Shown here one piece after another: positions 11,571-34,756 of a stretch of 64,000 nt of DNA (position 1 is the first letter of the stretch; every line of letters begins with the position of its first letter). The stretch comes from Bacillus sp. FSL H8-0547. GTDB taxonomy: Bacteria; Bacillota; Bacilli; Bacillales; Bacillaceae. Made by a program: the position numbers and the translations under genes. A model generated the notes under the pieces. That model saw only the letters and a list, made by a program, of their open reading frames with translations. It ran no database searches and was not told the DNA's origin. The stretch spans positions 372,001 to 436,000 of the forward strand of contig JBBODD010000001.1 in the NCBI GenBank assembly GCA_038002745.1, given 5' to 3'.

Positions 11571-11574
11571 GCTG

Positions 11575-12528
11575 CTACCTCCTTAGCTTTGGATCAAGCG
11601 CATCCTGCAGTCCGTCTCCAAGCACGTTAAACGCAAACATCGTCAGGGAGATGCACAGGGCAGGAAAAAAGAGGCGCCACCAATGTCCAGTTAGAATTGT
11701 CGAGAGGGCATCACTTGCCATAACGCCCCAGCTCGCAAACGGAGCCTGAATACCGAGACCGAGAAAGCTTAGAAATGCTTCTGCGAAAATGGCAGACGGG
11801 ACAGTAAGCGTGATTTGCACGATGATTGGACCCATCGTATTCGGAAGCAGGTTTTTCCTGATGATTCTGCTTGTTTTCGTGCCGAATGATTTTGAAGCAT
11901 GCACAAATTCATAGTTTTTGATCTGCAGGACCTGTCCACGCACGATTCGTGCCATGCCGATCCATCCGGTCACTGTTAGTGCAACAATGATGGTGAAAAG
12001 ACCGGGTCCCATCACAACCATCAAAAGAATGACGACAAGAAGGTACGGAAGCCCGTATAAAACTTCGACCACGCGCATCATATAATGATCTGTCTTTCCG
12101 CCTTTGTAGCCGGCAATCCCGCCGTACAGAACTCCGATTGCAAAATCAATCAGAGCAGCAATGGCCGCTACAAACAGGGAGATTCTTGCCCCGTACCACG
12201 TTCTTGTAAACACATCGCGGCCAAGCTCGTCTGTACCGAACCAGTATTTCGCAGACGGCGGCAGGTTTTGATCTGTCAGCACCTGGGTTCTGACGGAGTG
12301 AGGTGAAATCAATGGGCCGAAAATGGCCATTAACGTTATAAAAATCAAAAAGATGAGGCCTGTCATAGCCAGTTTATTTTTCCGGAGCCTTCTCCAGGCA
12401 TCGTGCCAGTAGGAGAGACTAGGTCTTACAACCGCTTCTGCTGCTTTGCTGTCTTTGCCTTTAGGGGCAAACCATGCATCAGGAATATCCCGGGACAGGT
12501 GCGGATCTTGCTGTTTGTTCAGTTCCAT
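11575..12528 (-). CDS. dppC: Dipeptide ABC transporter permease DppC
   Basis: 317 residues with an N-terminal cytoplasmic tail, then about six membrane helices. The first is LAMTGLIFLIFITLMAIFG, and the family motif FGTDELGRDVFTR follows. The EAA loop is in the EAFLSFLGLG region. It forms the channel with DppB. Its start codon touches the stop of dppB (12528), consistent with coupled translation. Confidence 0.94.
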   Translation of the reverse strand: MELNKQQDPHLSRDIPDAWFAPKGKDSKAAEAVVRPSLSYWHDAWRRLRKNKLAMTGLIFLIFITLMAIFGPLISPHSVRTQVLTDQNLPPSAKYWFGTDELGRDVFTRTWYGARISLFVAAIAALIDFAIGVLYGGIAGYKGGKTDHYMMRVVEVLYGLPYLLVVILLMVVMGPGLFTIIVALTVTGWIGMARIVRGQVLQIKNYEFVHASKSFGTKTSRIIRKNLLPNTMGPIIVQITLTVPSAIFAEAFLSFLGLGIQAPFASWGVMASDALSTILTGHWWRLFFPALCISLTMFAFNVLGDGLQDALDPKLRR

Positions 12529-13460
12529 TATCGTCCCCCCCGTTTTGCCACTTGAATTCTCGGATCAAGAATTCCGTACGCTATGTCTACTAAAAACAGC
12601 ATCACGATTAAGATGGTGCTGTAAAAGACTGTCGTTCCCATAATGACGGGATAGTCTCTCGTGCCGATGCTTTCAATGAAATATTTTCCCATACCCGGTA
12701 TTGCAAAGATTTTTTCGATGACGAATGTTCCTGTCAAAATACTTGCTGCGAGCGTTCCAAGGACAGTCACAACCGGCAAAAGAGCATTTCTCAAGGCATG
12801 CTTGAAAACGATTTTGACTGGAGAAAGTCCTTTGGCCCGCGCTGTTCTTATGTAGTCCTGAGTAAGCACTTCAAGCATGCTTGAGCGCGTCAGACGGGCA
12901 ATAATCGCCATTGGCCCAGTTGCAAGCGCAAGGGTCGGCAAAATCATATGCAGCGGGCTTGACCACGTAGCAGCAGGTAGGATGTTCCAGTTAACCGCAA
13001 AGTTTTGAATAAGCAGTGTGGCCATAATGAAGTTTGGAACAGAAATTCCAAGCACCGCTATGGTCATGGCAAGATAATCAATAAATCCGTTATGCCGCAA
13101 TGCAGCAATCACGCCAAGAGCAATTCCTGAAAAAACGGCAACTGTCAAGGTGACAATTCCAAGCTCAAACGACACCGGAAATCCTCGGCCGAGAAGCTCG
13201 TTAACCGTCTGTGACGACTTTTTGATTGAAGGGCCAAAATCAAATGTGACAAGCGACTTCATGTACATCGCATATTGAACCGGCAGCGGCTCATCCAGGT
13301 GATAAAAAGCTTCAAGATTACGCTGGACAGCTTCGCTCGTGCCTCTCTCTTCGTTAAAAGGAGAACCCGGGATTGTATGCATCAGAACAAATGTAAGAGT
13401 AATAATCAGCCAGATTGTCAAAACCATAGAAATCAGGCGTTTTACAAAGTATGTATTCAT
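12528..13460 (-). CDS. dppB: Dipeptide ABC transporter permease DppB
   Basis: 310 residues with six predicted membrane helices. It begins YFVKRLISMVLTIWLIITLTF, the usual DppB/OppB N-terminus, with a large outer loop carrying the LDEPLPVQY motif and a C-terminal EAA-type region (ARAKGLSP). It partners DppC. The gene follows dppA by 13 bases. Confidence 0.94.
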   Translation of the reverse strand: MNTYFVKRLISMVLTIWLIITLTFVLMHTIPGSPFNEERGTSEAVQRNLEAFYHLDEPLPVQYAMYMKSLVTFDFGPSIKKSSQTVNELLGRGFPVSFELGIVTLTVAVFSGIALGVIAALRHNGFIDYLAMTIAVLGISVPNFIMATLLIQNFAVNWNILPAATWSSPLHMILPTLALATGPMAIIARLTRSSMLEVLTQDYIRTARAKGLSPVKIVFKHALRNALLPVVTVLGTLAASILTGTFVIEKIFAIPGMGKYFIESIGTRDYPVIMGTTVFYSTILIVMLFLVDIAYGILDPRIQVAKRGGR

Positions 13461-13473
13461 GCTATCCCACTTC

Positions 13474-14298
13474 CTAACAGAATGTCGTTCTCATAGCCAG
13501 TTCCGTCATCACAAGCATTGCGCGGTAGGCTTCCAGGATGTCCCTGGCCTGGAACGTGACAATCGTGGTGTTTTCTTTATGCTCTGTTCCCGGCATGAGC
13601 GCTGCCCATTCAGCCTGTCCATAATTGGCAAATTCAATGGCCATGAGGGGACGGTCTGGAGGAGTGAGCGGTTTTACATGTTCTCTATTCTTAATGGCAA
13701 GTGCCGTCTTCTCTTTTAACAGCTCCTGTGCTCTTTGAGGAGTAAGTGATTTAACAACTGATCGTGAAATCGTCTCCTTTACAATTGCGGTTGTGACGTT
13801 CGGAATAAGAGCCTCCGCTTCCATAGCTGCCTGGTCATCTCCTGCAACCATGATGACCGGAACTCCGTGATAGCCTGCAACATAGGCGTTAAATCCCAGT
13901 TCACCGACGGCCACATCATTGATCCAGATTTCTCTCACACCGAAAATCATCGTATGGGACATAACCCCTTTTTTTGAAGCACGTGCATGATAACCCGTGA
14001 AAACAGCTCCCCTGAAACTGCCGTCGAGCCCCTGAACCATACTGTACGGCTTTACATCACCCGTGATCAGCTGTGTATCGGGGTGCAGGTCTTCAATCAG
14101 GAGGTTGTTCATTTTCGAATGGCTGTCATTGACCACGACTTCATTTGCCCCCGATTCAAAAGCCGCTTCTATTACCGCATTCGCTTCCCCTGTCATGATT
14201 TTTCGGCCTCTTTCATAATTGAGCTTAGATGAATTCACATGTGTCTCATCAGCGAGTCCAGTGATTCCTTCCATGTCAACTGAGACATATACCTTCAC
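13474..14298 (-). CDS. dppA: D-aminopeptidase DppA (zinc, self-compartmentalising)
   Basis: 274 residues of the M55 family. The N-terminal metal motif SVDMEGITG supplies Asp8 and Glu10; further zinc and active-site histidines lie in VVNDSHSKMNN and in GYHARASKKGVMSHTM. It releases N-terminal D-residues such as D-Ala from peptides, fitting the murein-peptide theme of the operon. The start is GTG at 14298 with GGAGG seven bases upstream. It is the first gene after the CodY-overlapped promoter. Confidence 0.94.
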   Translation of the reverse strand: MKVYVSVDMEGITGLADETHVNSSKLNYERGRKIMTGEANAVIEAAFESGANEVVVNDSHSKMNNLLIEDLHPDTQLITGDVKPYSMVQGLDGSFRGAVFTGYHARASKKGVMSHTMIFGVREIWINDVAVGELGFNAYVAGYHGVPVIMVAGDDQAAMEAEALIPNVTTAIVKETISRSVVKSLTPQRAQELLKEKTALAIKNREHVKPLTPPDRPLMAIEFANYGQAEWAALMPGTEHKENTTIVTFQARDILEAYRAMLVMTELAMRTTFC

Positions 14299-14730: not shown

Positions 14731-15150
14731 CTAATCATTTTCCCCTTCTCTTATCAGCTTGAACGTTCCGGAGCCTTTTGCAAGCAGCTTCCCCTCTGAA
14801 TCTCTTATTTCACCTTCCATAAAAGCCGTCTTATATCCCAGCTGAAGAATCTTTCCTTCCGCATAGATTTCTCCTTCCGTGCTCGGTGCAAGGTACTGGA
14901 TGCTGGAATTCATGGTTGCACACCTTGTTTTCGACACAGACCTGAGGAGCATGCCCTGTACATAGTCAAGCATGGTGGCATGTACGCCTCCGTGCAGTGT
15001 GCCGTTTGCATTCAGGACATACTCTTTCATCTCAAGCTTGATTTTCACTTCATTTTCCTCAAAGTGCACGATGTCGATTCCCATGTGCTGAAAAAAAGGA
15101 CTTTCCTCAAAGCTCCGCCTTATTTCTTTCACGTCCATTGCCGTTGCCAT
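14731..15150 (-). CDS. Hotdog-fold acyl-CoA thioesterase (PaaI family), last gene of the beta-oxidation operon
   Basis: 139 residues of the 4HBT/PaaI family, with the characteristic helix motif NGTLHGGVHATMLD followed by an active-site acidic residue. PaaI-type enzymes hydrolyse aryl- or acyl-CoA esters and can release CoA trapped in dead-end intermediates. The ATG at 15150 is preceded by AGAAGGGGGGG. It follows the enoyl-CoA hydratase by 16 bases, so it is co-transcribed. Confidence 0.85.
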   Translation of the reverse strand: MATAMDVKEIRRSFEESPFFQHMGIDIVHFEENEVKIKLEMKEYVLNANGTLHGGVHATMLDYVQGMLLRSVSKTRCATMNSSIQYLAPSTEGEIYAEGKILQLGYKTAFMEGEIRDSEGKLLAKGSGTFKLIREGEND

Positions 15151-15166
15151 AAAACGTCCCCCCCTT

Positions 15167-15949
15167 CTACATTGACGTAAACTGCGGCTTCCGTTTTTCT
15201 AAAAAAGCTGCCGTTCCTTCATTTTTATCCTCTGTGGAAAACAGAACGGCCTGGGCGAGCTTCTCAATCAGGAGACCCGTTCTCTGATCAGCGTCAAAGC
15301 CCGCATGCACGGCAAGTTTGGCAAGCTTCACAGCAAGCGGCCCTTTCGATAGAATCTCCTTTGCCGCTTCTTCTGTTTGCGCCTGCAGCTGTCCGTTTCC
15401 TGCAACCTCAGACACTAAGCCTATGCGATAGGCTTCAGTTGCATCAATGATCTTCCCTCTCAGAATCATGTTCATCGCTGGGCCTTTTCCTATCAGTCTT
15501 GCAAGCCGCTGGGTTCCTCCCGCACTTGGGATAATGGACAGATTCAGTTCCGGCAGGCCGAACTTCGCATGTTCAGAAGCAATGCGGATGTCACAGGCCA
15601 TAGCAAGCTCGCAGCCTCCTCCTAATGCAAACCCATTGACCATGGCAATCGTCGGCTTTTCATATGACTCTATGTAGTCGTATACCTGCTGCATGCCTCC
15701 AGGATTAAAGACATCCAGGGCAGTCCGCGTTTTCAGCTGGCCAATATCAGCTCCTGCAGCAAATGATTTTTCGCCGCTTCCTGTAAAGATGACGCAGCCT
15801 GTTTCATCGTCTTTTGCCAGTTCCTGAAGAGCTTCGGTCATTTCATCAAGCGTTTCTTTGTTTAATGCATTCCTGCGCTCAGGACGGTTAATAATCAAAT
15901 AGGCAAGGTTCCCCGATTTTTTAACTTCAATATTTGCAAAAGCATTCAT
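15167..15949 (-). CDS. Enoyl-CoA hydratase/isomerase
   Basis: 260 residues of the crotonase family. The CoA-binding segment is FAAGADIGQL and the oxyanion/active-site segment is NGFALGGGCELAMACD. The PELNLSIIPSAGGTQRL segment supplies the second catalytic Glu region, as in true hydratases. It adds water to 2-enoyl-CoA in beta-oxidation. The start overlaps the end of the upstream hotdog gene, with AAGGGG before the ATG. Confidence 0.9.
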   Translation of the reverse strand: MNAFANIEVKKSGNLAYLIINRPERRNALNKETLDEMTEALQELAKDDETGCVIFTGSGEKSFAAGADIGQLKTRTALDVFNPGGMQQVYDYIESYEKPTIAMVNGFALGGGCELAMACDIRIASEHAKFGLPELNLSIIPSAGGTQRLARLIGKGPAMNMILRGKIIDATEAYRIGLVSEVAGNGQLQAQTEEAAKEILSKGPLAVKLAKLAVHAGFDADQRTGLLIEKLAQAVLFSTEDKNEGTAAFLEKRKPQFTSM

Positions 15950-15953
15950 CGTT

Positions 15954-16343
15954 TCAGCCCCTTTTTTTCAGTAATTTAAAATCTCCGTGGCCAATTGCTG
16001 CCAATGTCTGATCTGATCTGTATACCCAGCCTTCTGCAGACGACATCCCGTCCCTGGAGCAAATAACCTTAGCTGTACAGGTAAAAAAAGGAGAAGGTGA
16101 CGGGTCTAGAATCAATGTACTCAAAACGATTGTTGCAGTCGGAGCTGCTCCTGCCTGTGATGCTGCCGTCCCCATGGCAATATCAAGCAGTGTGTAAAAC
16201 ACACCGGTCCCAACCGTTTCATCATCAAGCAAATGCTCCCTGCTCGTTTCAACTGAAACAACAACAGCATCCCCTTGATCCTCTTCTCTTTTCATCGATA
16301 GATGGCTGAAAAACGAGGAATGCACCATGTCCGGAGCTTTCAT
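15954..16343 (-). CDS. Second hotdog-fold thioesterase-like protein
   Basis: 129 residues with a hotdog core: the helix TGVFYTLLDIAMGTAAS followed by beta strands (ATIVLSTLILDP). It lacks the usual HGG motif of PaaI enzymes, having VGTGVFYTLLD there, so its activity is less certain. The ATG at 16343 follows the thiolase TAA with no gap. It may be a thioesterase or a MaoC-like/structural hotdog protein tailored to the operon's substrate. Confidence 0.7.
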   Translation of the reverse strand: MKAPDMVHSSFFSHLSMKREEDQGDAVVVSVETSREHLLDDETVGTGVFYTLLDIAMGTAASQAGAAPTATIVLSTLILDPSPSPFFTCTAKVICSRDGMSSAEGWVYRSDQTLAAIGHGDFKLLKKRG

Positions 16344-17525
16344 TTATACGAGCTCCAGCATCAGTGCCATACCCTGTCCGCCGCCGATGCAGAGAGTTGA
16401 AATGCCGGTCTTTTTGCCGGACCGCTTCATTTCATGCAGCAGAGAGACCGTTATTCTTGCACCTGTAGCCCCAAGCGGATGTCCGAGTGCAATCGCTCCG
16501 CCGTTTACGTTTACTTTCGAAGAATCGAGTCCAAGTTCTCTTATGACGGCCAGAGCCTGGGAAGCAAAGGCTTCGTTCACTTCGAATAAATCGATGTCTT
16601 CTATGGATTTTCCCGTTCTCTCGAGCAGTTTTCTTACGGCCGGAACGGGTCCGATCCCCATAATTTCCGGGGAAACGCCAGCTGCTGCCCAATCCGTGAT
16701 TCTTGCCATCGCCGTAATACCAAGCTCTTTTGCTTTACTCTCTTTCATCAGAACAACGGCTGCAGCCCCGTCATTTCTTCCGCACGCATTTCCTGCTGTC
16801 ACAGTTCCTGATTTGCGGAAAGCGGGCTTTAGCTGTGACAGTTTTTCATAGGTTGATTCCGGACGGGGGTGCTCATCTGTATTGAATAAAACCGAGCCTT
16901 TTTTATTCGGCACTTCAACAGGTACGATTTCCTCTTCAAAAACCTTTTGATTAACGGCTTCCGCTGTTCTCCGCTGGCTTTCAATTGCGAAAGCATCCTG
17001 ATCTTCCCTTGAAACGCCATACTTTTCTGCTACATTTTCAGCTGTTATTCCCATTCCGAGGTGCTCACCGTATATTTCTCTAGGCTGCTGCCCATTCTCT
17101 TTGTTTGAATCTACAAGAACAGCAGTATCTCCTCCAAAGCGTGATCCTCTCAAATAAATGGGAGCCTGGCTCATGTTTTCGGTACCGCCGGCAACGACAA
17201 CTTCGGCCTGCCCTGACATGATCTGCTGGACTCCTGATGCGATGGCCTGCATGCCGGATGCACAGAGGCGGTTGATGGAAAAGGCGGGTGAAGATTCAGG
17301 AATTCCCGCACGGAGCGCTGCCACCCTGGCAACATTTGATGCCATAGTCGTTTGTCTCACTTCTCCTAAAATGACTTCATCAACCTGTTCCGGCGTTATA
17401 CCCGCGCGGACAATCGATTCCTGAATGACCCTGGTCGCGAGCACGCTTGCCTCTACGTCCTTCAAAGTCCCTCCATACCGTCCAATCGCTGTCCGGACAG
17501 CACTTGCAATAATAATCGGATCCAT
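16344..17525 (-). CDS. Acetyl-CoA C-acyltransferase (thiolase)
   Basis: 393 residues, the usual thiolase length. The nucleophile Cys88 sits in [11 protein letters not shown], the NEAFA motif and the [16 protein letters not shown] His motif follow, and the second Cys is in CIGGGQGMA. It cleaves 3-ketoacyl-CoA to acetyl-CoA. A GTG at 17534 is possible, but the ATG at 17525 has GGTGAGG three bases before it and gives the standard N-terminus [15 protein letters not shown]. Confidence 0.92.
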
Positions 17526-17545
17526 ACCCCTCACCCTTTCAATTG

Positions 17546-18694
17546 TTACTGATACTGCTTTTTCAGCTGGCCTGCAATGATGTTCTTCTGGATCTCGGAC
17601 GTGCCTTCATAAATCCTTGTGATTCTTGCATCACGGAAAAAACGTTCAATCGGATAATCCGCAATGTATCCGATTCCGCCGTGCACCTGAACCGCCTTGT
17701 CAGCAATTCTGTTGTACACCTCTGATCCAAACAGCTTCAGCATGGCTGCTTCTTTAATGACCTTCATGCCTTCATCAACCATCCAGGCGACCCTGTAAGT
17801 AAAAGAACGCAAAGCTTCAATTTCCATGGCCATCTCCGCAATCATGTGAGAAACGGCCTGATGCTCAAAGATCGGGACATCAAATTGCACCCTGTCCTTT
17901 GCATAAAGCATGGAAAGGTCGAGCAATTTTTGACATGAACCAAGGTTTCTCGCAGCAAGGCCCGCTCTTCCATTGGCAAGAATTTTCAGGGCATTCACAT
18001 ACCCCTGTCCTTCCTCGCCCAGCACATTTTCAGCAGGAACCTCACAATCCTCCATGATGATTTCAGCCGAATGTGACCCGCGAAGACCCATTTTCTTTTC
18101 AACAGCCCCTACTTGAAAGCCGGGGAAATCTTTTTCCACAATAAAGGAGGTGATTCCCTTCGGCCCTTTTGCAGGATCCGTAACAGCCATTACAGTGAAA
18201 ACACCAGCTTCCGTGGCATTTGTAATGTAATGCTTCGTCCCGTTCAGGATGTATTTATCGCCTCTTTTTACAGCTGTTGTTTTCAGGTTTGTCGCATTGG
18301 ATCCGGCGCTCGGCTCGGTCAGTGCAAACGCCCCGATCTGCTCTCCGGCTGCCATTTTGGGGAGATATCTTTGTTTTTGCTCTTCATTTCCCATCTCCAC
18401 AATTCCAACGGTGCCGATTCCTGTATGAGCGCCAATCAGAGTGGTGTAACCGTTATGTGTAGCGCCGATCTCTTCGTACAGGGCACACTTTCCAACCATA
18501 CCAATGCCGAGGCCGCCGTATTCTTCCGGAATACTTAATCCAAATAAGCCGAGTTCTTTTGACATGGCAATGATCCGTTCAGGGATCGCATTTGATTCTT
18601 CAATTTCCATCGCAGCAGCTTCAACCTCTGTTTGAACAAAGTCCCGGACACCCCGCTTTAACAGCTGAATATCCTCATCCAATTGAAAATTCAT
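17546..18694 (-). CDS. Acyl-CoA dehydrogenase (operon copy 2)
   Basis: 382 residues. FAD/substrate motifs are [12 protein letters not shown] and the [10 protein letters not shown] loop, and the catalytic Glu lies in [14 protein letters not shown], typical of short/medium-chain acyl-CoA dehydrogenases. It introduces the trans-2 double bond and passes electrons to ETF; no etf genes are in the window. ATG at 18694 is chosen over 18700 because AGGAGG then stands eight bases away. Confidence 0.92.
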
Positions 18695-18706
18695 ATGCAT
18701 GGCCTC

Positions 18707-19525
18707 CTAGCTGTAAGTATAAAAACCGCGGCCGCTTTTCTTTCCAAGCCAGCCGGCCTTCACGTATTTCACAAGAATCGGGCAGGGGCGGAATTTTTCA
18801 CCGAGTGTTTGATGCAAATATTCCATGTTGCGAAGCCTTGTATCAAGTCCTACCAGATCCGCTAATTCGAGAGGGCCCATAGGGTGATTTAATCCAAGCT
18901 TCATTGCTTTATCGATGTCTTCAGCAGATCCGACACCCTCCATAAGCATGGTCATTGCCTCATTGCCGATCAGGCAGTTCATCCTGCTGACCGCAAAACC
19001 CGGATATTCATTAATTCTCACGCATTCTTTTCCAAGTTTTTCGCCAAAATGAAAGCAGCTTTCAACCGTTTCATCAGATGTTTCAAGTCCGCATATGACT
19101 TCAATCAGCTTCATCTTAGGGACAGGGTTGAAAAAGTGCAGGGCAATGCACTGCTTCGGTCTGCCTGTCTGCGCGGCAATTTCAGTCGGGCTCATGGTTG
19201 ATGTATTCGTCGCAAGAATGGCTGAAGGCTTTGCATACCGGTCAAGCTCTTTAAACACACTGATTTTAAGATCCATTAATTCAAGAACGGCTTCTATAAT
19301 TAAGTCTGCGTCCTCTGCGGCTGATTTCATGTCAGTTGTAAATGCAAGGTTTGCTTTCTCTATGCTTAAACCGGCTTTTTCAGCTTGTCTGCTGATATAA
19401 AATCGCGCCATTTCCAAAGATTGTTCTGAAATGTCCTGAACGGTCACTTCATAGCCTGCAGCAGCACACGCATAGGCAATTCCGCGCCCCATCGTTCCTG
19501 CACCGATCACACTGATTTTTTTCAC
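18707..19525 (-). CDS. 3-hydroxyacyl-CoA (3-hydroxybutyryl-CoA) dehydrogenase, copy 2
   Basis: 272 residues. The N-terminal Rossmann motif is VIGAGTMGRGIA, the catalytic HFFNPVPKMKLIEV segment holds the His, and the C-terminal 3HCDH domain (NHPMGPLELADLVGLD) follows. It oxidises 3-hydroxyacyl-CoA with NAD. The frame is open further upstream into the neighbouring gene, but the GTG at 19525 directly follows that gene's stop and has GGAGGG upstream. Confidence 0.9.
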   Translation of the reverse strand: MKKISVIGAGTMGRGIAYACAAAGYEVTVQDISEQSLEMARFYISRQAEKAGLSIEKANLAFTTDMKSAAEDADLIIEAVLELMDLKISVFKELDRYAKPSAILATNTSTMSPTEIAAQTGRPKQCIALHFFNPVPKMKLIEVICGLETSDETVESCFHFGEKLGKECVRINEYPGFAVSRMNCLIGNEAMTMLMEGVGSAEDIDKAMKLGLNHPMGPLELADLVGLDTRLRNMEYLHQTLGEKFRPCPILVKYVKAGWLGKKSGRGFYTYS

Positions 19526-19526
19526 A

Positions 19527-20399
19527 CTATCCCTCCACAGGGGCCTTTTCGTACGTATAGAAGCCTTTTCCGGTCTTCCGGCCGAGTTCTCCGTTCTGCA
19601 CTTTTTCACGGACTATTTTTGCTGGCATGTCCCGTTCATCCCCGCTCTCTTCATAGCGCTGCATGCGGACAAAGTAATTGACGTCAATACCTGTCAGGTC
19701 CATCAGGGCAAAAGGACCGATCGGATGGTTCAAAGCTTTCGTGCACACAAGATCAATTTCTTCGTGAGAGGCATAGCCGTTCTCAAGCAGAAAGACAGCT
19801 TCATCCATGAGCTTGCCTAATATGCGGTTGGCTATAAAACCAGAAATCTCTTTTTTTAATAAAACAGGAGTCTTTTTAATGGTTTTAACAAATTCCATCG
19901 CCGTATTTGCTGTTTCTTCTGATGTATGCGGCCCTTTTACCACTTCTACAAGCTCCATGACGAGGGCGGGGTTAAAGAAGTGAATGTTGCAGACTTTTTC
20001 AGGGCGGTTTGTTGCATCAGCTAGTTTCGAGCTTACGATTGTCGAGCTGTTTGTAGCCAAAATGGCATGCGGCTGCGTGAGGTCATCCAGCTGCCTGAAC
20101 AGTTCTCTTTTCACATCCAGCTTTTCAACAATTGCCTCAATGACAAGGTCGGCATCCCTAACATCTGCCAAGCTTGAGGTAAATAAAATTCTGCTGAATG
20201 CAGCATCCGTTTCTTCGGCTGTATATCTCCCCTTTTTCACCCGCTTATCCATCTGCTGCTGAAGAAAATCCTTTGCTTTTGCCAGACTCTCCTCACTCAC
20301 ATCCTGAAGCGTTACAGGATAGCCGGAAAGCGCACACACCATAGCAATCTGCGATCCCATTGTTCCTGAACCAATCACAGCAATCTCATGAACCTTCAT
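19527..20399 (-). CDS. 3-hydroxyacyl-CoA (3-hydroxybutyryl-CoA) dehydrogenase, copy 1
   Basis: About 290 residues with VIGSGTMGSQIA, the HFFNPALVMELVEV catalytic segment and NHPIGPFALMDLTGID. It is a homologue of the next gene but clearly diverged, which suggests two substrates (for example different chain length or stereochemistry) or two rounds of one pathway. The ATG at 20399 (second of two) gives nine bases to AGGGG and overlaps the ligase end by 14 bases. Confidence 0.9.
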   Translation of the reverse strand: MKVHEIAVIGSGTMGSQIAMVCALSGYPVTLQDVSEESLAKAKDFLQQQMDKRVKKGRYTAEETDAAFSRILFTSSLADVRDADLVIEAIVEKLDVKRELFRQLDDLTQPHAILATNSSTIVSSKLADATNRPEKVCNIHFFNPALVMELVEVVKGPHTSEETANTAMEFVKTIKKTPVLLKKEISGFIANRILGKLMDEAVFLLENGYASHEEIDLVCTKALNHPIGPFALMDLTGIDVNYFVRMQRYEESGDERDMPAKIVREKVQNGELGRKTGKGFYTYEKAPVEG

Positions 20400-22005
20400 T
20401 TTCATTCTCCCCTCTTTCGCTTTCTTCTTTAATCAGCAGCCGCTTCAGAAGTTTTCCCACTGTGTTTCTCGGGAGGCTCTCCCTGACTTCAAACTGCTTC
20501 GGCACTTTATAAGGTGTCAGCTTTGTATAGCAGTATCCTTTTAATTCCTCTGCATCTACTATTCTTCCGTCTTTAGGAACAACGTAAGCTTTGACTCTCT
20601 CTCCGTGCTCTTCATCCGGCAAACCCACTACAGCAGCTTCTTTTACATCCGGATGCTCATAAAGGACACCTTCAACCTCCTGTGGATAAATATTAAATCC
20701 GCCAAGAATGATCATTTCCTTTTTCCGGCCGACGATGTAAAAATAGCCTTCTTCATCCATCGTCGCGAGGTCTCCCGTGTACAGCCAGCCGTTTTGGAGG
20801 GCTGCATGTGTTTCGCTTTCATTTTTCCAGTAGCCCTTCATAATCTGGGGCCCCTTGATCAGCAGCTCCCCTACGCTTTTTGGACCAAGCTCCCTGTTGT
20901 CTTCATCTACAATCATGCAGTCTGTCAGGGGAACAGGAATGCCGATGCTGCCGATTTTCCTCTTTCCAAAAGGCGGATTGCGGTGGGTGGAAGGTGAAGC
21001 TTCGGAAAGACCGAATCCTTCTCCGATTCTTGTGCCTGTCAGCTTTTCAAAGCGCTGAATGATTTCAACGGGAAGCGGAGCGGATCCTGATGAGCACAGC
21101 TTTAGGCAATGGAGCTTAGCTTCCTCAATTTTAGGATGATTGACAAAGGCAATGTACATCTTTGGAACACCCGGAAAGAAAGTCGGTCTGTGTTCCTTGA
21201 TTTTTTCAAGAACATCATCAATCTCAAACTTTCTGAAAAGCAGAAGCCTTCCGCCTATGAAAATGCCGAGATTCATCCCGCTTGTCATCGCGTAAACGTG
21301 GTAGAGAGGCGTTGCAATGAGTACGGTTTCCTCTCCTTGAATCATGGAGTCGCCATACATCAGATAGCTTTGATAGACATTTGCGGTCAGGTTGTAGTGA
21401 GTAAGCATGGCACCTTTCATTTTCCCGGTTGTCCCGCCTGTGTACTGAATGACCGCCACATCTTCCGCTGCATCAATTCCTTCCGGCTGATGGAGAGGCT
21501 TCCCGGATTCAATCAGCTGATCAAGATCGTAAAATGAATCATCCTGCTGCTCCAGCTGAGAACCAAATGTATAGGTGAATGTGAAGATATCACTGATTTT
21601 CCTGATGGTTTCTCTTCCGGCTGCATCAGCTACAATAGATGTTACTTCTGCATCCATCACAATCTGGATCAGTTCTCGTGCCGTATACATCGGATTAATT
21701 TGAACCACAACAAGACCGAGTGCATGTGCAGCATAGTACGAAACAACATAATCAGGGTGATTGGCAAGCATGAGGCCAATACGGTTCCCTTTTGCGAGTC
21801 CCAGTTCCTTCCAGGATCCTGCCAGCCTGTCAACCCTGTCCTTAAGCTCCAAATAAGACATCTCTTCCCCTTCAAACAAAATGGCCGTCTGATTTCCGTA
21901 TCTCTCTGCTGTATTCTGCAGCAGCATGTAGAGAGATTCCTCAGGCAGATGGACATCCCTGTGCTGATAAAAAGAGTTCCAGGGCCGTTCTTTTTCTTTT
22001 TTCAA
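20386..22005 (-). CDS. Acyl-CoA synthetase (AMP-forming ligase)
   Basis: 539 residues of the ANL superfamily. The phosphate-binding loop is YTGGTTGKMKGAMLTHYN, the A5 motif is EGFGLSEASP, and A7/A8 are YTGDLA and GRKKEMIILGGFNIYP. The C-terminal catalytic Lys is in PRNTVGKLLKRLL. It activates the imported acid to its CoA ester at the cost of ATP, the entry step to this operon. The start is TTG with AGGAGGG eight bases upstream. Chain-length preference cannot be read. Confidence 0.92.
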   Translation of the reverse strand: MKKEKERPWNSFYQHRDVHLPEESLYMLLQNTAERYGNQTAILFEGEEMSYLELKDRVDRLAGSWKELGLAKGNRIGLMLANHPDYVVSYYAAHALGLVVVQINPMYTARELIQIVMDAEVTSIVADAAGRETIRKISDIFTFTYTFGSQLEQQDDSFYDLDQLIESGKPLHQPEGIDAAEDVAVIQYTGGTTGKMKGAMLTHYNLTANVYQSYLMYGDSMIQGEETVLIATPLYHVYAMTSGMNLGIFIGGRLLLFRKFEIDDVLEKIKEHRPTFFPGVPKMYIAFVNHPKIEEAKLHCLKLCSSGSAPLPVEIIQRFEKLTGTRIGEGFGLSEASPSTHRNPPFGKRKIGSIGIPVPLTDCMIVDEDNRELGPKSVGELLIKGPQIMKGYWKNESETHAALQNGWLYTGDLATMDEEGYFYIVGRKKEMIILGGFNIYPQEVEGVLYEHPDVKEAAVVGLPDEEHGERVKAYVVPKDGRIVDAEELKGYCYTKLTPYKVPKQFEVRESLPRNTVGKLLKRLLIKEESERGENENEGS

Positions 22006-22017
22006 ATTGCATCCCTC

Positions 22018-23283
22018 CTACTTGCCAATTGCGGCCTGCTGATCGGGCGCAAGATCGATTTTCTGCTGCGGTCTGACAAATGCAGTAAATAAGACTCCGA
22101 ACAAAACGATCAGGCCGGCCATAAATAAGATGGACCAGTCGAACCCCGCTGAACTGTTTTCTCCGCCGGCAGCAACGATATACCCTGTAATAAGCGGACC
22201 TACAATTCCGGCAAGATTCCCTGAAGACGTCAGAATACTCGTCATAAGATTTCCTCTGTCAGGCAGCAGCTGAATCATAATCGTCGGTCCTATCGTCAGA
22301 ATGCCATATGTAAGACCTTTCGCAAGGCACATAGCGATGATGACCCAGACTGCGTTTGTGATAAGAGCAGTAGAAGCAAGAAGCACGGCCCCGATAATCA
22401 TGGCGTAACCGACAACGTATACGCGCGAGGTCTTCCAGTCTTTGTTTTTCTTAAACATTCTGTCTGATAAAACAGATACTCCGATATAAACGCCAACTGA
22501 AACGAGACCGATTCCTGATACGGCGTAACCCATTTCCATGCTGCTCATATTGACAACCTTCACAAGGTAAACAGGCAGCCAGACGGCAAACCAGACGACA
22601 AGAAGATAGGTTGAAAAATAAGCAAGAGTCGTAAAAAGAGCGGAAGGCTTTGACAGCATCAGCATAAAGGCTTTCAAATCAAGCTTTTCAAGTTTCTTCA
22701 CTTTCGGCTTTTCGTTTTCTTCAAGCTCATCTGCACGAGGAACATCTCTGGTAAACTGAATCGCCACAAACCAGACAATGCTTGCCAGACCAAGGACGGC
22801 AAACGCAACCCTCCAGCCGAACATGTGAATCAGTGCGACTAAAATCGGAGCGGCGACCATTGCTCCAAGAGTTGCTCCTGATACGACTACGGAATTCGCC
22901 AGGCCGCGAAGCTTCGGCGGAAACCACGTATTGGCGTGATTATAGGCAATCGGACTGAACGGACCTTCAAACGCTCCGAGCAAAAACCTGTAAAGCAAAA
23001 GCAGCGGAAGACCGGCAATGGCCAGCACTCCAATCTGCAGCACAGCCCATGTAAGCATCAGGAAACCAAGCACTTTCTTTGCTCCGACCCTGTCTGCCCA
23101 GGCAGCCCCGAAAATACCCGTCACCGGATACAGCCAGTAATAGCTGCTTCCCACAAGACCCCAGTCGGCATAGGAAAGGTTAAATTCCTTCATGATCGGC
23201 ACAGCCGCAAGTCCAGTGATGGATTTATCAGCAAAGTTAATGAACATTCCGAAAAACAGCAGTACAAGCACAGTCCAGCGCAT
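22018..23283 (-). CDS. MFS transporter, anion:cation symporter-like (probable carboxylate uptake)
   Basis: About 421 residues with 12 membrane helices. The signature between helices 2 and 3 is WADRVGAKKVLG, and a long N-terminal half motif (YRFLLGAFEGPFSP) is typical of the anion:cation symporter family that takes up organic acids. It sits between an acyl-CoA dehydrogenase and a CoA ligase, so it probably imports the acid that the ligase activates. The ATG at 23283 has GGGGGG seven bases upstream; a longer frame from 23331 has no ribosome site. Confidence 0.85.
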   Translation of the reverse strand: MRWTVLVLLFFGMFINFADKSITGLAAVPIMKEFNLSYADWGLVGSSYYWLYPVTGIFGAAWADRVGAKKVLGFLMLTWAVLQIGVLAIAGLPLLLLYRFLLGAFEGPFSPIAYNHANTWFPPKLRGLANSVVVSGATLGAMVAAPILVALIHMFGWRVAFAVLGLASIVWFVAIQFTRDVPRADELEENEKPKVKKLEKLDLKAFMLMLSKPSALFTTLAYFSTYLLVVWFAVWLPVYLVKVVNMSSMEMGYAVSGIGLVSVGVYIGVSVLSDRMFKKNKDWKTSRVYVVGYAMIIGAVLLASTALITNAVWVIIAMCLAKGLTYGILTIGPTIMIQLLPDRGNLMTSILTSSGNLAGIVGPLITGYIVAAGGENSSAGFDWSILFMAGLIVLFGVLFTAFVRPQQKIDLAPDQQAAIGK

Positions 23284-23302
23284 GTTGATTCCCCCCAGTC
23301 GC

Positions 23303-24451
23303 CTAATTTTCTTCAAGCACGCGTCTTGCAATGATCAGACGCTGAATTTCGTTCGTTCCTTCATAAATCTTTGTAATTCGCGCATCACGGTAAAAGCGCT
23401 CAACCGGATAGTCGGAAACATAGCCCATGCCGCCATGGATCTGTACCGCTTTATCCGCAACACGGTTAAAAACGTCTGATGCAAAAAGCTTAGCCATCGA
23501 TGCTTCTTTGATTACTTTTTTCCCTTCATCAATCATCGCTGCAGCCATGTACGTCAAAGTCCGTGCCGCCTCTGTTTCTGTTGCCATATCTGCAAGCATC
23601 CACTGAATCGCCTGATTGTCGGCAATCGGTTTTCCGAATTGAACCCTTTCTTTCGCGTACGATGCTGAAAGCGCTATCAGTTTGTCGCATGACCCGACGG
23701 CCCTTGCTGCAAGCCCAACCCTTCCCTCACTCAGAATTTTCAGTGCCGACATGTATCCCATCCCGACTTCGCCGATTACATTCTCCTCAGGAACAATACA
23801 GTCTTCAAAAATCAGCTGCGCAGTATGAGACCCGCGAAGGCCCATTTTTTTATCTTTTTTTCCAAGAGAAAAACCCGGGAAATCCTTTTCGATTAAAAAC
23901 GCGGTGATGCCGCCTTTAGCTCCCTTTTCCTTGTCTGTCAGAGCAAAAACCGTGAACACATCCGCAACAGGTGCATTCGTAATAAAATGCTTTGTTCCGT
24001 TCAGGACCCACTGATTGCCTCTTTTTTCTGCACGAGTTGAAAGATTTGTCGCATCAGACCCTGCACCCGGCTCAGATAAAGCAAACGCAGCAATCTTTTT
24101 CCCCGCTGCCATTTCCGGCAAATATTTTTGTTTTAAGTGTTCTGATGCGAGCTTCACCAGTCCTGTGCTTCCAATTCCTGTGTGAGCACTGATCAGACTC
24201 ACAAACCCGTTGTGGGTATGGCCAAGCTGTTCAAGCACGACCGCCTTTCCGACCGCATTCAGTCCAATGCCGCCGTACTCTTCAGGAATGCTGATCCCAA
24301 ACAGTCCCAGATCCTTCGCCTGCTCCACAAGATGATCCGGAATTCTGTCCTCATCCTCAATCTGCTGAGCGTAAGGTTCGACCTCCTGATCAACAAAACT
24401 CCTAACCATTTTCCTCATTTGTTCAATTTCCGGTGTAACGGTTGCCTGCAT
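23303..24451 (-). CDS. Acyl-CoA dehydrogenase (operon copy 1, first gene)
   Basis: 382 residues. FALSEPGAGSDATN and MGLRGSHTAQL are the FAD/substrate loops, and the catalytic Glu is in RITKIYEGTNEIQ. It resembles the other dehydrogenase of the operon but differs throughout, again pointing to two oxidation steps. It is the first gene after the sigma-54 promoter, with about 35 bases between the -12 element and the start (AAGGGGGA before the ATG). Confidence 0.92.
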   Translation of the reverse strand: MQATVTPEIEQMRKMVRSFVDQEVEPYAQQIEDEDRIPDHLVEQAKDLGLFGISIPEEYGGIGLNAVGKAVVLEQLGHTHNGFVSLISAHTGIGSTGLVKLASEHLKQKYLPEMAAGKKIAAFALSEPGAGSDATNLSTRAEKRGNQWVLNGTKHFITNAPVADVFTVFALTDKEKGAKGGITAFLIEKDFPGFSLGKKDKKMGLRGSHTAQLIFEDCIVPEENVIGEVGMGYMSALKILSEGRVGLAARAVGSCDKLIALSASYAKERVQFGKPIADNQAIQWMLADMATETEAARTLTYMAAAMIDEGKKVIKEASMAKLFASDVFNRVADKAVQIHGGMGYVSDYPVERFYRDARITKIYEGTNEIQRLIIARRVLEEN

Positions 24452-24486
24452 CCTTAAATCCCCCTTTTGTGTTGTTGCTTATATTG

Positions 24487-24503
24487 ATGCAAGAAGTGTG
24501 CCA
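24487..24503 (-). promoter_or_regulatory. Sigma-54 (SigL) -24/-12 promoter of the beta-oxidation operon
   Basis: On the minus strand TGGCAC-N5-TTGCAT matches the sigma-54 consensus TGGCAC-N5-TTGCW at every fixed position. It is well placed before the acyl-CoA dehydrogenase start at 24451, so the operon should need an AAA+ activator. Confidence 0.92.
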
Positions 24504-24544: not shown

Positions 24545-24624
24545 GATTCATTTTTGAATTGAATTTGTCGAGAATACGGGGTATTTGCGATTCAATTTTG
24601 AATCAGATGATTCAGTAATGAATG
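24545..24624. promoter_or_regulatory. Three palindromic upstream activator sites GATTCA-N4-TGAATC
   Basis: The copies are at 24545-24560 (GATTCATTTTTGAATT), 24589-24604 (GATTCAATTTTGAATC, perfect) and 24609-24624 (GATTCAGTAATGAATG). They start about 40 to 120 bases upstream of the -24 element, the usual zone for sigma-54 activators. The last two are 20 bases apart, close to two helical turns. Confidence 0.8.
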
Positions 24625-24702
24625 ATAGAGGGGACTGTTTGAGGGTACTATGCCAAACCTTCGGGAGCATCAAGGGCTGATTGGTGCTAGCTTGGGGTAA
24701 TC

Positions 24703-25370
24703 ATGAATTAGCTTCACAAACTCAATGCGGATCCCCGCCGAAAGTGTTCTAAACATGAGTTAGCTGCACAAACTCAGTGCGGGGCCAGCCCGAAAGTGTT
24801 CTATAAATGATTTAGCAACACAAACTCAGTGCGGGGCTCCGCCGAAAGTGTTCTAAGCATGAGTTAGCTGCACAAATTCAGTGCGATGGCCCGCCGAAAG
24901 TGTTCTAAACATGAGTTAGCTGCACAAACTCAGTGCGGGGCTCCGCCGAAAGTGTTCTATAAATGATTTAGCAACACAAACTCAGTGCGATACCCCGCCG
25001 AAAGTGTTCTAAACATGAGTTAGCTGCACAAACTCAGTGCGGGGCTCCGCCGAAAGTGTTCTATAAATGATTTAGCAACACAAACTCAGTGCGATACCCC
25101 GCCGAAAGTGTTCTAAACATGAGTTAGCTGCACAAACTCAGTGCGGGGCTCCGCCGAAAGTGTTCTATAAATGATTTAGCAACACAAACTTAGTGCGATG
25201 CTCCCCCAAAAGTGCTCTAAGCATGAGTTAGCTGCACAAACTCAGTGCGATGCCAGCCCAAATGTGTTCTATAAATGATTTAGCAACACAAACTCAGTGC
25301 GATGCTCCGCCGAAAGTGTTCTAAAAAGATTTAGCAACACAAACTCAGTAAGGGGCTCGCCCGAGGATGT
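24703..25370. repeat. Tandem array 2: about 13 copies of a 52-bp unit
   Basis: Units start at 24703, 24755, 24807, 24859, 24911 and so on with exact 52-base spacing to about 25327. Two subtypes, ATGAGTTAGCTGCACAAACTC and ATGATTTAGCAACACAAACTC, alternate through much of the array, making a 104-bp higher-order period. The first subtype has the inverted pair TGAGTT...AACTCA. Similar flanks (TGCTAGCTTGGGG near 24686, TGCTGGCTTGGGGG near 25395) border the array. It lies between two minus-strand genes, upstream of the sigma-54 sites. No coding potential. Confidence 0.95.
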
Positions 25371-25555: not shown

Positions 25556-26887
25556 CTATTGCAGTTCAACCTTTATCGGCTCCATTTTTTCAGAAGACCT
25601 GTTCATGCTAAGTACACCAAATGGCACAAACAATGTTAAATCACTCAGATCGGATTCAGAAGGGATTGCATAAACCGACTGAAAGCGGAGTTCCTTCTGA
25701 TCAGCAGCTATGCTTATTTTGCCCTTTATAAGGGTCTCTGTGTTAATAGAAACTTCTTCTGCAAAGTTCTGAAATACGTCCTTTTTGAACTCCTCACCAA
25801 AATCATTTGAAAGCTGATAATCAACAATGAGCTGATCTCCATCTCTTTTCACCTGTTCCACATGCAGCTGATAGCCAAATCGGCTGCTCTCAACGACAAG
25901 CGAAGGTGAAAGTTTAGCCATTGCCGGAGGCTCATCCCGGTCTATTAAAGGAAGAAGGCTTAATACATCTGCATTTTTCAAAAGATCATCCGTGTATAAC
26001 ACGCGCCAGTCTGTAACTGTCATTCCATCTTTTTTTTCTGAACGAATCACCTCGCTGCTGACTGGAAGCTGTTCCTTGCCCCCAGCATCCTTTATCTTAA
26101 AAGAAAGGTTATCAGATTCGTTTGAAAGAACCGTTTTGTATTCAATCACGGTTGTCGCTTTCCCTTTTGCGACAGTTTGAATAGTCACCGATTCGCTTCC
26201 CGATCTCGACACTTTATTTACGCCAAGTACCTCAGGTTCAATCCGCTTTAAAGGTACATCAAATCGCCAGTCTCCTTTTTCGCCGGCAATGGAAGTGAAT
26301 CTCACCGGAAGAGTAAAATCTGAGGGAAGCTTCTTTTCATCCAAATAATACTCAGCCGTTCCAATGTATCCATCTTCTGTTTCAACCAGGGAATGACTGC
26401 CCGCCAACTGACTGGACTCTTTGCCGTCAAATAAAGACAGACTGTAGTCGGAAGCGGGATCATTCGGGCCTTCTTTCCATTTCTCCGGCAGATTTTCCCC
26501 TTCGGCTTTAAACGTGATTCCGACAACATTTCCTTCATAATAAGCACTTGTCAGCGTCACACTTATTCCTCCGCTTTCAGCCTTTTCGTTCAGTTCATTC
26601 ACGAGTCCTGCTGAAGCAAGTTCTTTTCCTATGGTAAAGGAGGAAAACGGCTCATAAAGTGACCCAATGAGAGGAACACTCGCGAGCACCCCATTAACTG
26701 GCGCAAAGAAAAACCCTGTTCCAAGAATGATGGCAGCTGCAGATCCTGACAAAACACCGGCAGAAGCGAACATTTTCTTCTTTTTTTGTTTTTTACCTTC
26801 AAGTATTCCGCGGGACACGGCTGCCATCATGTCGTCTTCCGGTACGGCAATTTGATCAATCTGACTGTCAAACCAGCTTTTGTTCAT
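25556..26887 (-). CDS. DUF4179-type membrane anti-sigma-like protein
   Basis: 443 residues. A short cytosolic head (about residues 1-40, rich in Lys at its end) is followed by one membrane helix (GSAAAIILGTGFFFAPV) and a large outer domain that begins with the DUF4179 pattern. The gene overlaps the ECF sigma gene by 20 bases and is read from an ATG at 26887 with GGAGG eight bases upstream. This is the usual arrangement for a sigma factor and its membrane anti-sigma. The signal sensed is unknown. It ends at a strong terminator. Confidence 0.8.
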   Translation of the reverse strand: MNKSWFDSQIDQIAVPEDDMMAAVSRGILEGKKQKKKKMFASAGVLSGSAAAIILGTGFFFAPVNGVLASVPLIGSLYEPFSSFTIGKELASAGLVNELNEKAESGGISVTLTSAYYEGNVVGITFKAEGENLPEKWKEGPNDPASDYSLSLFDGKESSQLAGSHSLVETEDGYIGTAEYYLDEKKLPSDFTLPVRFTSIAGEKGDWRFDVPLKRIEPEVLGVNKVSRSGSESVTIQTVAKGKATTVIEYKTVLSNESDNLSFKIKDAGGKEQLPVSSEVIRSEKKDGMTVTDWRVLYTDDLLKNADVLSLLPLIDRDEPPAMAKLSPSLVVESSRFGYQLHVEQVKRDGDQLIVDYQLSNDFGEEFKKDVFQNFAEEVSINTETLIKGKISIAADQKELRFQSVYAIPSESDLSDLTLFVPFGVLSMNRSSEKMEPIKVELQ

Positions 26888-27395
26888 GGTCTTTTCCTCC
26901 TTCAAGGGCTGCTTTCAGCTCAGCTTTAGCTCTGCGCAAATAGGTTTTCACTGTATTTTCGGGTTTTTCCATCATGCCTGAAATCGTCCGGATTGGTAAA
27001 TCGTGATAATAAAACAAAATAATAACCGTCTGGTAGTTCTCACTAAGTCCTCCTATCGCATGGACAAGATCAAGGTCATTCTCCTTTTGCACAAAAGAAA
27101 CGTTCTCAAGAAACGCACTATCCATGGCCACAGTTTTCTTCTTTTTTCTCAGCAGCTCAAAGGCTGTCCTGATTAAAATTTTCATCAGCCACGTACGGAA
27201 ATATTCAGGCTGTTTTAACGTTCCAATTGATACAAACGCCTTGCAGACCGTCTCCTGAAGAACATCCAGTGCGTCTTCTTTGTTTCTCACATATATAAAA
27301 GCAGTTTTATAAAGCTTGGCACTCTCGAGTTTAATCAGCTGTTCAAAGGCTTTTTCATTGCCGTTAATCGCTTTTTTTACTGTATGTATGTCCAC
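26868..27395 (-). CDS. ECF RNA polymerase sigma factor (SigV-like group)
   Basis: About 175 residues. Region 2 (RNKEDALDVLQETVCKAF) and region 4 (PIRTISGMMEKPENTVKTYLRRAK) are clear. The internal segment TWLMKILIRTAFELLRKKKK resembles SigV and its relatives. The GTG at 27395 is preferred over the TTG at 27413 because AAAGGAGAGG then lies at proper distance. It is probably held inactive by the DUF4179 protein encoded next and may activate its own promoter (see site at 27422-27446). Confidence 0.88.
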   Translation of the reverse strand: MDIHTVKKAINGNEKAFEQLIKLESAKLYKTAFIYVRNKEDALDVLQETVCKAFVSIGTLKQPEYFRTWLMKILIRTAFELLRKKKKTVAMDSAFLENVSFVQKENDLDLVHAIGGLSENYQTVIILFYYHDLPIRTISGMMEKPENTVKTYLRRAKAELKAALEGGKDHEQKLV

Positions 27396-27421
27396 TTCTT
27401 CCTCTCCTTTCAAAAGTTAGA

Positions 27422-30867: not shown

Positions 30868-31188
30868 TCACCGTTCGATCTTCAGCTGCTGATACTGAAA
30901 ATGCAGATCTGACAGCGCAGCGGTGATGGCATGGATGGCTTTTCCGCAATAATGTTCCCTGACATGCTCAGTGACTTCGTCCACCCCGTTCTGAAGGCTG
31001 TAGCCCCGGAGAAGGCGACCGACAAAATCCCTTCCGTGCTCCGTTGCAAGCGTGCAGGAAGCTTCCAGTATCACCGCGTATCTTTTATCAATTTCAACCG
31101 TGATCGTCAGCATATCGTATACGTTCTTCGCCGCCATTCCTGCCGGCAGGCGCGCATGTCCCGCAATAAACATCGTCTGTGAGTGCAT
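30868..31188 (-). CDS. DUF3870 domain protein, upstream partner of the sigma-54 activator
   Basis: About 106 residues, soluble, beginning with MFIAGHARLPAGMAAK and holding GRDFVGRLLRGYSL, the DUF3870 pattern. The family is of unknown function, and from general knowledge tends to sit beside sigma-54 regulators of acyl-CoA or ketone pathways in Bacillales. The ATG at 31188 follows GAGAGGGACCTCACC; the longer frame to 31311 has no ribosome site. It ends four bases before the activator start, so the two are coupled. Confidence 0.75.
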   Translation of the reverse strand: MHSQTMFIAGHARLPAGMAAKNVYDMLTITVEIDKRYAVILEASCTLATEHGRDFVGRLLRGYSLQNGVDEVTEHVREHYCGKAIHAITAALSDLHFQYQQLKIER

Positions 31189-34729: not shown

Positions 34730-34756
34730 TGCTTCATCCCCTTTTAGTAGATATAA

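Follow-up and report, generated by a model that had tools for sequence, protein, structure and literature searches.

A probable sigma-54-dependent operon for acid uptake and beta-oxidation, and its predicted enhancer-binding protein, in Bacillus sp. FSL H8-0547

We analyzed a 64,000-nucleotide stretch of the 4.2-Mb genome of Bacillus sp. FSL H8-0547 (the window; G000:C1:372001-436000), whose minus strand carries, from position 24451 down to 14731, ten closely spaced open reading frames (ORFs) for acid uptake, coenzyme A (CoA) activation, and beta-oxidation. As judged from sequence, these genes very probably form a sigma-54-dependent catabolic unit controlled by an enhancer-binding protein (EBP) encoded at 29184 to 30863. 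Uptake and beta-oxidation of an acid by this operon can be strongly inferred from the protein families, and its control by sigma-54 and the EBP is strongly supported by comparative anatomy. The first-pass annotation of this DNA had also claimed sigma-54 control, which is now strongly supported by conservation and by a dedicated activator; it had missed this activator and three palindromes upstream of the promoter.

The operon starts with an acyl-CoA dehydrogenase (ACAD 1; 23303 to 24451), followed by an organic-anion carrier of the major facilitator superfamily (MFS), SLC17/ACS type (22018 to 23283; PF07690), an AMP-forming acyl-CoA ligase (20386 to 22005; PF00501/PF13193), two 3-hydroxyacyl-CoA dehydrogenases (19527 to 20405 and 18707 to 19528; both PF02737/PF00725), a second acyl-CoA dehydrogenase (ACAD 2; 17546 to 18700), a thiolase (16344 to 17534; above the TIGR01930 cut-off), a hotdog protein without the HGG motif (15954 to 16343), an enoyl-CoA hydratase (15167 to 15949; PF00378), and a PaaI-like (4HBT) hotdog thioesterase with HGG (14731 to 15150; TIGR00369, PF03061). 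With 23283 taken as the likely start of the MFS gene, the intergenic distances are, in order, 19, 12, -20, -2, 6, 11, 0, 4, and 16 bases. Both the order and the tight spacing described in the first-pass annotation are thus borne out by the ORF list. Its gene names held for the most part as well, nine of the ten genes being backed by Pfam or NCBIfam (ACAD 1 and ACAD 2 among them), and what it had left as a "dehydrogenase" at 17546 to 18700 was refined to ACAD 2. The hotdog protein at 15954 to 16343 had no match in Pfam or NCBIfam; its name was kept because most of its length can be aligned, at 23 to 31% identity, with PaaI-like hotdogs encoded in related loci. It carries a GTG/GSG-type sequence in place of HGG and retains the Asp. 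Both ACADs contain an IYEGT motif, which presumably holds the usual catalytic Glu. Having two ACAD genes and two for hydroxyacyl-CoA dehydrogenase is a trait conserved in part of the family, which by itself does not reveal the type of chain. Among the terminator-like sites listed, none falls on the minus strand from 14250 up to the last operon gene. Next downstream, at 10575 to 14298, lie what we take to be genes for an oligopeptide-type ABC transporter and a D-aminopeptidase-like protein, apparently a separate unit.

The operon is preceded by the -24/-12 element TGGCACACTTCTTGCAT (24487 to 24503, minus strand), an exact match to TGGCAC-N5-TTGCAT and an element of the GG-N10-GC type, as the first-pass annotation had reported for the exact match. 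Counting from this element, transcription is predicted to start at about 24477. The exact motif occurs only once in the window. When two mismatches were allowed, the window gave 7 matches versus 14.5 on average in shuffled sequences; since such matches are fewer than in the shuffles, only the exact match was considered meaningful. The whole genome contains 11 exact matches: the operon promoter, four before what we take to be rocD-, YfcC-permease-, ptb/bkd-, and ablA-like genes, with activator genes beside or near them, three at 52-base intervals that probably sit in a repeat, and three others. A motif of such length can occur by chance in 4.2 Mb, and the three repeat-like matches could be read in the same way. 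Nevertheless, it is extremely improbable that the operon element is a chance match, as the 17 bases are identical in 7 of 7 genomes of the genus (the window's own and six others) amid changing surroundings, and such a site is found in all 57 of the EBP-linked loci described below. Sigma-54 itself is encoded in the genome (PF04552, E 2.6e-60).

Upstream of the promoter lie three palindromes of the form ATTCA-N4-TGAAT, the candidate upstream activating sites (UAS). UAS 1 (24545 to 24560; AATTCA-N4-TGAATC) is centered at about -75, UAS 2 (24589 to 24604; GATTCA-N4-TGAATC, with perfect arms) at about -119, and UAS 3 (24609 to 24624; CATTCA-N4-TGAATC) at about -139, the sequences of UAS 1 and UAS 3 being given for the minus strand. 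A palindrome search in the seven genus genomes found all three sites, together with the identical -24/-12 element, in every one of them amid otherwise changing sequence. The exact GATTCA-N4-TGAATC has a single genomic copy, UAS 2, and 25 places match it with at most one mismatch; a backward-sequence control gave 1 match and was not relied on, since it consists of letters of another kind. In the rest of the genome, none of the places matching the palindrome with up to one mismatch comes within 1 kb of a -24/-12 site found at the same tolerance. In a congener (L092, position 16730), an exact GATTCA-N4-TGAATC was seen near another CoA ligase region.

The EBP gene lies on the strand of the operon, 4.7 kb upstream of its promoter, and was recognized by Pfam, by an alignment of 23 relatives, and by its conserved linkage. 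Its product of 559 amino acids comprises a divergent N-terminal stretch and, by Pfam, a PAS domain, an AAA+ domain with GAFTGA, an AAA lid, and a TyrR-type helix-turn-helix (HTH; HTH_50). It combines what defines an enhancer-binding protein, namely, PF00158 with GAFTGA, the Walker motifs, and a DNA-binding HTH. The 23 relatives show almost no variation in Walker A, have either GAFTGA or GAFSGA at the corresponding place, and largely conserve the HTH segment. The genome contains 12 PF00158 matches, seven of which read from sequence as sigma-54 activators, one of the seven being short; no further PF00158 match was found within 150 kb of the EBP.

Beyond this genome, the operon and the EBP lie close together in all seven genus genomes, and the EBP was found in 39 of the 348 genomes searched from the order, in 20 of 126 genera (E<=1e-140). 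In 27 stretches around the EBP, a -24/-12-like site was found in 26 and a palindrome downstream of the EBP in 24; the exceptions for the palindrome are L151 and L163, in which the pattern found none, and L164, which ends at the EBP. In L145 and L149, the palindrome is found only before a second promoter. Beta-oxidation, ligase, or carrier genes follow the EBP in the fetched stretches. The ligase was dropped as a family marker, being too general (its relatives of about 40 to 53% identity lie outside the genus), and the EBP and ACAD 1 were used instead.

A second sample consisted of named loci around the best 80 of 159 relatives of ACAD 1, at 69 to 99% identity, from 79 genomes (Thalassobacillus cyri appears twice); the closest named relative among them is Metabacillus indicus (L243), with an ACAD 1 that is 99% identical. 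Loci were considered EBP-linked when the 10 kb fetched upstream contained an EBP of at least 45% identity in the same orientation, which applied to 57 of the 80, spanning 23 genera by record titles. The strict promoter pattern TGG[CT]A[CT]N5TTGC[AT] was sought between the EBP and the gene, an interval varying from 126 to 8278 bases, and was present in all 57. At most 250 bases upstream of it, an exact ATTCA-N4-TGAAT was found in 47 of these loci, and with up to one mismatch the spacer of 4 was found in every one, against at most 22 for any other spacer from 0 to 12 (17, 21, and 22 loci for the next-highest spacers, 0, 8, and 12). With two mismatches allowed, the spacer of 4 could no longer be separated from the others. 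In the 66 of the 80 loci that have a promoter site, exact palindromes with a spacer of 4 occurred 95 times, in 50 loci, compared with 3 times in total for spacers 0 to 3 and 5 to 12. In 61 of these 66, the ORF starts no more than 67 bases after the promoter site, or the site falls just inside a mechanically called start. Among the 14 loci without a strict site, ten are of a Peribacillus type, with promoter and palindromes placed before the ligase or another first gene. The palindrome extends to the consensus T-[GA]-ATTCA-W4-TGAAT-[CT]-A; adjacent copies are spaced 19 to 20, 42 to 48, or 51 to 65 bases apart, and exact copies begin 55 to 213 bases upstream of -24, an enhancer-like placement. 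L191, a record of Priestia megaterium, combines the EBP, the palindrome, the -24/-12 element, and the operon.

The presence of the palindrome also follows that of the EBP across genomes. In 13 loci, the palindrome stands at the operon and the EBP outside the locus, and the genome contains this EBP in all 13 cases (one of these loci, L197, starts near a contig end, and its EBP may be adjacent). Conversely, among 9 genomes without a palindrome at ACAD 1, 8 lacked the EBP at the thresholds used (1e-100 for L227; 1e-140 for L213, L235, L236, L237, L239, L242, and L244). The association gives a Fisher p of 2.8e-5, with kinship ignored. In L236, L237, and L239, where a remoter EBP-like protein (about 40%) is encoded, absence refers to this orthologue alone. 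A second copy of ACAD 1 that lacks a palindrome, L233, comes from a genome that has the EBP. L242 (a Firmicutes metagenome-assembled genome) and L244 (a Clostridiales bin) were seen to combine a 69% ACAD 1 relative with a nearby -24/-12-like site and TAXI/TRAP genes, perhaps a related system with another activator.

Three observations speak against the pairing of this EBP with these sites. The linkage is loose in the window, where a sigma/anti-sigma-like pair, an opposite-strand collagen-like gene, and DUF420 separate the EBP from the operon; the exact palindrome is missing in 10 of the 57 EBP-linked loci; and the genome of L234 holds an EBP relative (55%, with one internal stop) and has no palindrome at ACAD 1. 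The palindromes could instead be operators of another regulator, such as the TetR repressor FadR, with the EBP controlling something else. The FadR regulon of Bacillus subtilis places beta-oxidation enzymes under a repressor with the box TGAATGA-N4-TCATTCA, and its protein presumably recognizes a TGAAT...ATTCA palindrome. Across the 66 promoter regions, the everted arrangement TGAAT-Nk-ATTCA does occur 29 times, with k=5 or 6 in 25 cases, yet this is the pattern that neighboring palindromes 19 to 20 bases apart would give. The FadR-type box TGAAT-N8-ATTCA was found neither in the window nor in any of these promoter regions; the remaining sequence of the 80 loci has 11 copies. Together with the enhancer-like placement and the co-occurrence with the EBP, this makes an operator of another regulator very unlikely. 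The operon thus resembles the FadR regulon in its beta-oxidation enzymes and differs from it in its predicted mode of control and in its sites; the absence of the box in the window also agrees with the departure from the usual FadR pattern proposed in the first-pass annotation.

The sigma-54 targets known in Bacillus mostly concern amino acids, acetoin, and sugars, with BkdR, RocR, and AcoR as activators. The present system is like theirs in combining a SigL promoter, a nearby EBP gene, upstream sites, and a catabolic operon, and unlike them in its predicted target, beta-oxidation of an imported acid, its TyrR-type HTH, and its ATTCA-N4-TGAAT sites. In Clostridiales, CrbR acts on butyrate synthesis through a UAS of TGT and ACA with a 10- to 12-base spacer, in an operon that has neither the ligase nor the carrier present here, as far as the accessible part of that paper describes (Nie et al. 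2019, PMC6615313). The CrbR group was considered and, on this partial description, set apart by its site, the conserved site here being ATTCA-N4-TGAAT. A sigma-54 link of beta-oxidation genes in Bacilli is already in print at the level of clusters of orthologous groups (COGs): in the consulted part of a 2025 survey, COGs for ACAD and hydroxyacyl-CoA dehydrogenase, and likewise for thiolase and hydratase, are reported as enriched in Clostridia and Bacilli, as are acyl-CoA synthetases in Bacilli (PMC12316311, PLoS One). In that part, the beta-oxidation genes are given no EBP, enhancer site, or substrate. The term "acyl-CoA" does not occur in the consulted portion of the main text of Francke 2011 (PMC3162934). 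In the full-text literature within reach, which leaves out most subscription journals, we recognized no paper on this EBP, on its sites, or on the acid.

The carriers around the enzyme core differ among loci. In the fetched flanks of the 57 EBP-linked loci, counted by presence whether inside the operon or beside it, we found TRAP genes in 24, MFS in 13, TRAP plus Liv in 5, MFS plus Liv in 3, and no recognized carrier in 12. The TRAP parts tested were above the cut-offs of TIGR02123 and TIGR02122 (TAXI). Liv genes stand alone behind the EBP promoter in L150, and with a ligase first in L080. The nearest solved structures for the MFS carrier of the window are DgoT, VGLUT, and sialin. As unrelated carriers (MFS, TRAP-TAXI, and Liv ABC) are swapped around one enzyme core, the exchange points to an imported organic anion. 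The earlier proposal of an imported acid activated by the ligase is likewise supported by the carrier and ligase families in the operon.

Regarding the identity of the acid, we tentatively prefer an odd-chain dicarboxylate, because genes of glutarate metabolism (GCDH-like, GlaH, and LhgO) recur beside the EBP; plain or branched monocarboxylates are equally likely. The window itself encodes a glutaryl-CoA dehydrogenase (GCDH)-like ACAD (33512 to 34870, minus strand), a possible exit enzyme and a candidate only for the regulon. It has in common with the glutaryl-CoA dehydrogenase 3mpi an Arg and a KTWI sequence, and three other aligned ACADs are without both; this Arg (R94 in the human enzyme) is presumably the residue for the substrate carboxylate. 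In 24 readable stretches of 26 with GCDH-like genes, some from the same genome, the Arg was present in all 24 and KTWI in 23, with KAWI in L227. The protein scores below the cut-off of the glutaryl-CoA dehydrogenase model NF045552 (384 of 470 bits) and reaches 405 of 640 bits with an acryloyl-CoA reductase model. A CoA-transferase gene before GCDH is the arrangement of known glutarate pathways. Clustering of unlabeled neighbors revealed a CaiB/BaiF-like CoA-transferase match, named from sequence and not by a model, 48 to 74 bases before the GCDH-like match in 5 of the 26 stretches (L144, L199, L209, L212, and L227, of which L144 and L212 are one species).

In some other loci, the glutarate genes beside the EBP are those of the hydroxylase route. 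In L143, GlaH (NF002814, 440 bits, cut-off 333) and LhgO, the L-2-hydroxyglutarate oxidase (NF008726, 601 bits, cut-off 299), are encoded directly upstream of the EBP, and relatives of both occur there in L191 and L204. In L177, the last hotdog gene is followed in the same orientation by duf3870, glaH, and lhgO, at distances of 44, 259, and 27 bases; the line of called genes is interrupted earlier by stretches of 413 and 811 bases. In the window, a DUF3870 gene (30868 to 31194, minus strand; PF12986) precedes the EBP. This recurrent partner is found in the flank of 16 of the 57 EBP-linked loci, where its neighbors are often genes for the EBP, a GCDH-like protein, GlaH, or LhgO, and its product is worth considering as glutarate linked. 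A GCDH-like gene lies in the flank of 14 of the 57 loci and glaH in 6, compared with 2 and 0 of the 23 other named loci. That no flank holds both suggested mutual exclusion, an idea we rejected: chance alone would give about 1.5 joint cases, and G284, G348, G358, G368, and G407 carry both genome-wide. Across genomes of the order, GlaH is found in 17 of the 39 EBP genomes versus 24 of the 309 others (p=5e-8, Fisher, kinship ignored). This count leaves out 8 of 49 genomes because their matches were weak and partial (E above 1e-10), none of the 8 having the EBP, and including them gives 17/39 versus 32/309 (p=1.2e-6). GlaH or a GCDH-like protein is present in 30 of the 39 versus 97 of the 309 (p=6e-8). 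Within 10 kb of the EBP, a GCDH-like gene was found in 7 of the 18 EBP genomes having it; within 14 kb, GlaH was found in 5 of 17.

Several results weigh against a diacid. Neither a GCDH-like gene nor glaH is in the flank of 37 of the 57 EBP-linked loci, and 9 of the 39 EBP genomes lack both. The GCDH-like protein alone is only weakly associated with the EBP (18/39 versus 84/309, p=0.024), and the Fisher tests of co-occurrence ignore phylogeny, with four of the 39 EBP genomes belonging to the genus of the window. GlaH was not found in the window's own genome, and neither a palindrome nor a -24/-12 site with at most one mismatch was found by its GCDH-like gene. The Pim operon of Rhodopseudomonas comprises a dicarboxylate ligase, ACADs, and beta-oxidation enzymes, and the proteins of the window, unlike these, score below the Pim cut-offs: the ligase 341 of 706 bits (PimA), ACAD 1 107 of 624 and 130 of 653, and ACAD 2 124 and 107 (PimC/PimD). 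An assignment of the substrate from NCBIfam scores was abandoned, as the ACADs, the ligase, and the carrier are all below cut-off. Relatives with solved structures, for ACAD 1 as for the ligase, are too distant or too mixed to name one.

The same regulator and promoter could therefore serve an ordinary short- or medium-chain monocarboxylate, or a branched fatty acid, with the glutarate genes as neighbors by chance clustering of catabolic genes, a tentative alternative of the same standing as the dicarboxylate. Consistent with it are the 37 flanks just mentioned, several short-chain enzymes among the solved relatives of ACAD 1, and the best models for the ligase, which are fatty-acid ligases, below cut-off. 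Chance clustering, however, fits poorly with the co-occurrence of EBP and GlaH across genomes, with glaH-lhgO behind the operon in L177, and with the recurring carriers of organic-anion type. We consider unlikely a cyclic or aryl-substituted acid (cyclohexanecarboxylate or a phenylalkanoate) that would be shortened until the thioesterase frees the remainder; cyclic acids could also route via pimelyl- or glutaryl-CoA. The PaaI-like thioesterase, the Liv-type ABC carriers of some relatives, and the feruloyl-CoA and 4-coumarate-CoA ligases among the solved relatives of the ligase would agree with such an acid, for which there is nonetheless no specific support, no search having been aimed at ring-cleavage or benzoyl-CoA enzymes. 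As for the unusual chain suggested in the first-pass annotation, the glutarate genes beside the EBP indirectly favor its dicarboxylate option, and nothing was found in support of a branched one. Returning to the dicarboxylate, beta-proteobacteria shorten pimelate and azelate to glutaryl-CoA, and mutations in GCDH cause a strong impairment on both acids, according to the consulted part of the report (PMC12543098). That catabolism is like the present system in its ligase, ACADs, and beta-oxidation, and unlike it in its LysR regulators and PimCD-like ACADs, as described in the same part (PMC12543098).

From this anatomy and the comparative genomics, the following mechanism may be proposed. The sensor part of the EBP would detect the acid or a derivative; the EBP would bind the ATTCA-N4-TGAAT sites at about -75, -119, and -139 and drive RNA polymerase-sigma-54 from the -24/-12 site. 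The MFS carrier would import the carboxylate and the ligase join it to CoA, and the two ACADs, the hydratase, the two 3-hydroxyacyl-CoA dehydrogenases, and the thiolase would shorten it by beta-oxidation, with the hotdog thioesterase presumably releasing CoA from the end product. As the acid we would tentatively propose an odd-chain dicarboxylate of medium length, e.g., pimelate or azelate, shortened to glutaryl-CoA, which could exit via the GCDH-like enzyme or, in other genera, as free glutarate via GlaH/LhgO. Extended further, it is conceivable, if rather doubtful, that this unnamed activator family runs a Bacillales-wide regulon for odd-chain alpha,omega-dicarboxylates, sensing the diacid or its CoA ester, with the carrier type freely exchanged and the C5 product leaving via GCDH or via glutarate hydroxylase and 2-hydroxyglutarate oxidase.

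Two further features of the window were observed. Between the operon and the EBP, at 25556 to 27413, the gene for a small sigma-70-like factor containing regions 2 and 4 overlaps that for a DUF4179 anti-sigma-like protein; the pair is present in four of six congeners, with the sigma gene alone in L076 and neither gene in L077. Tandem arrays of 52- to 53-bp units, differing in sequence from one array to another, lie at 3706 to 4107, 24698 to 25358 (just upstream of the operon), and 37153 to 37753, and two of the three alternate as 104-bp double units. The -24/-12-like matches found 52 bases apart at genome positions 2321583 to 2321755 probably belong to a similar array.

Overall, a specific activator, an enhancer sequence, and a promoter could be tied to a sizable set of beta-oxidation genes across 23 genera. 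For acid catabolism, the proposed system provides a regulator that can be tested directly in laboratory bacilli, P. megaterium among them. Should the acid prove to be a dicarboxylate, the system would reveal the way in which Bacilli use C7 to C9 diacids, which also serve as plastic monomers.

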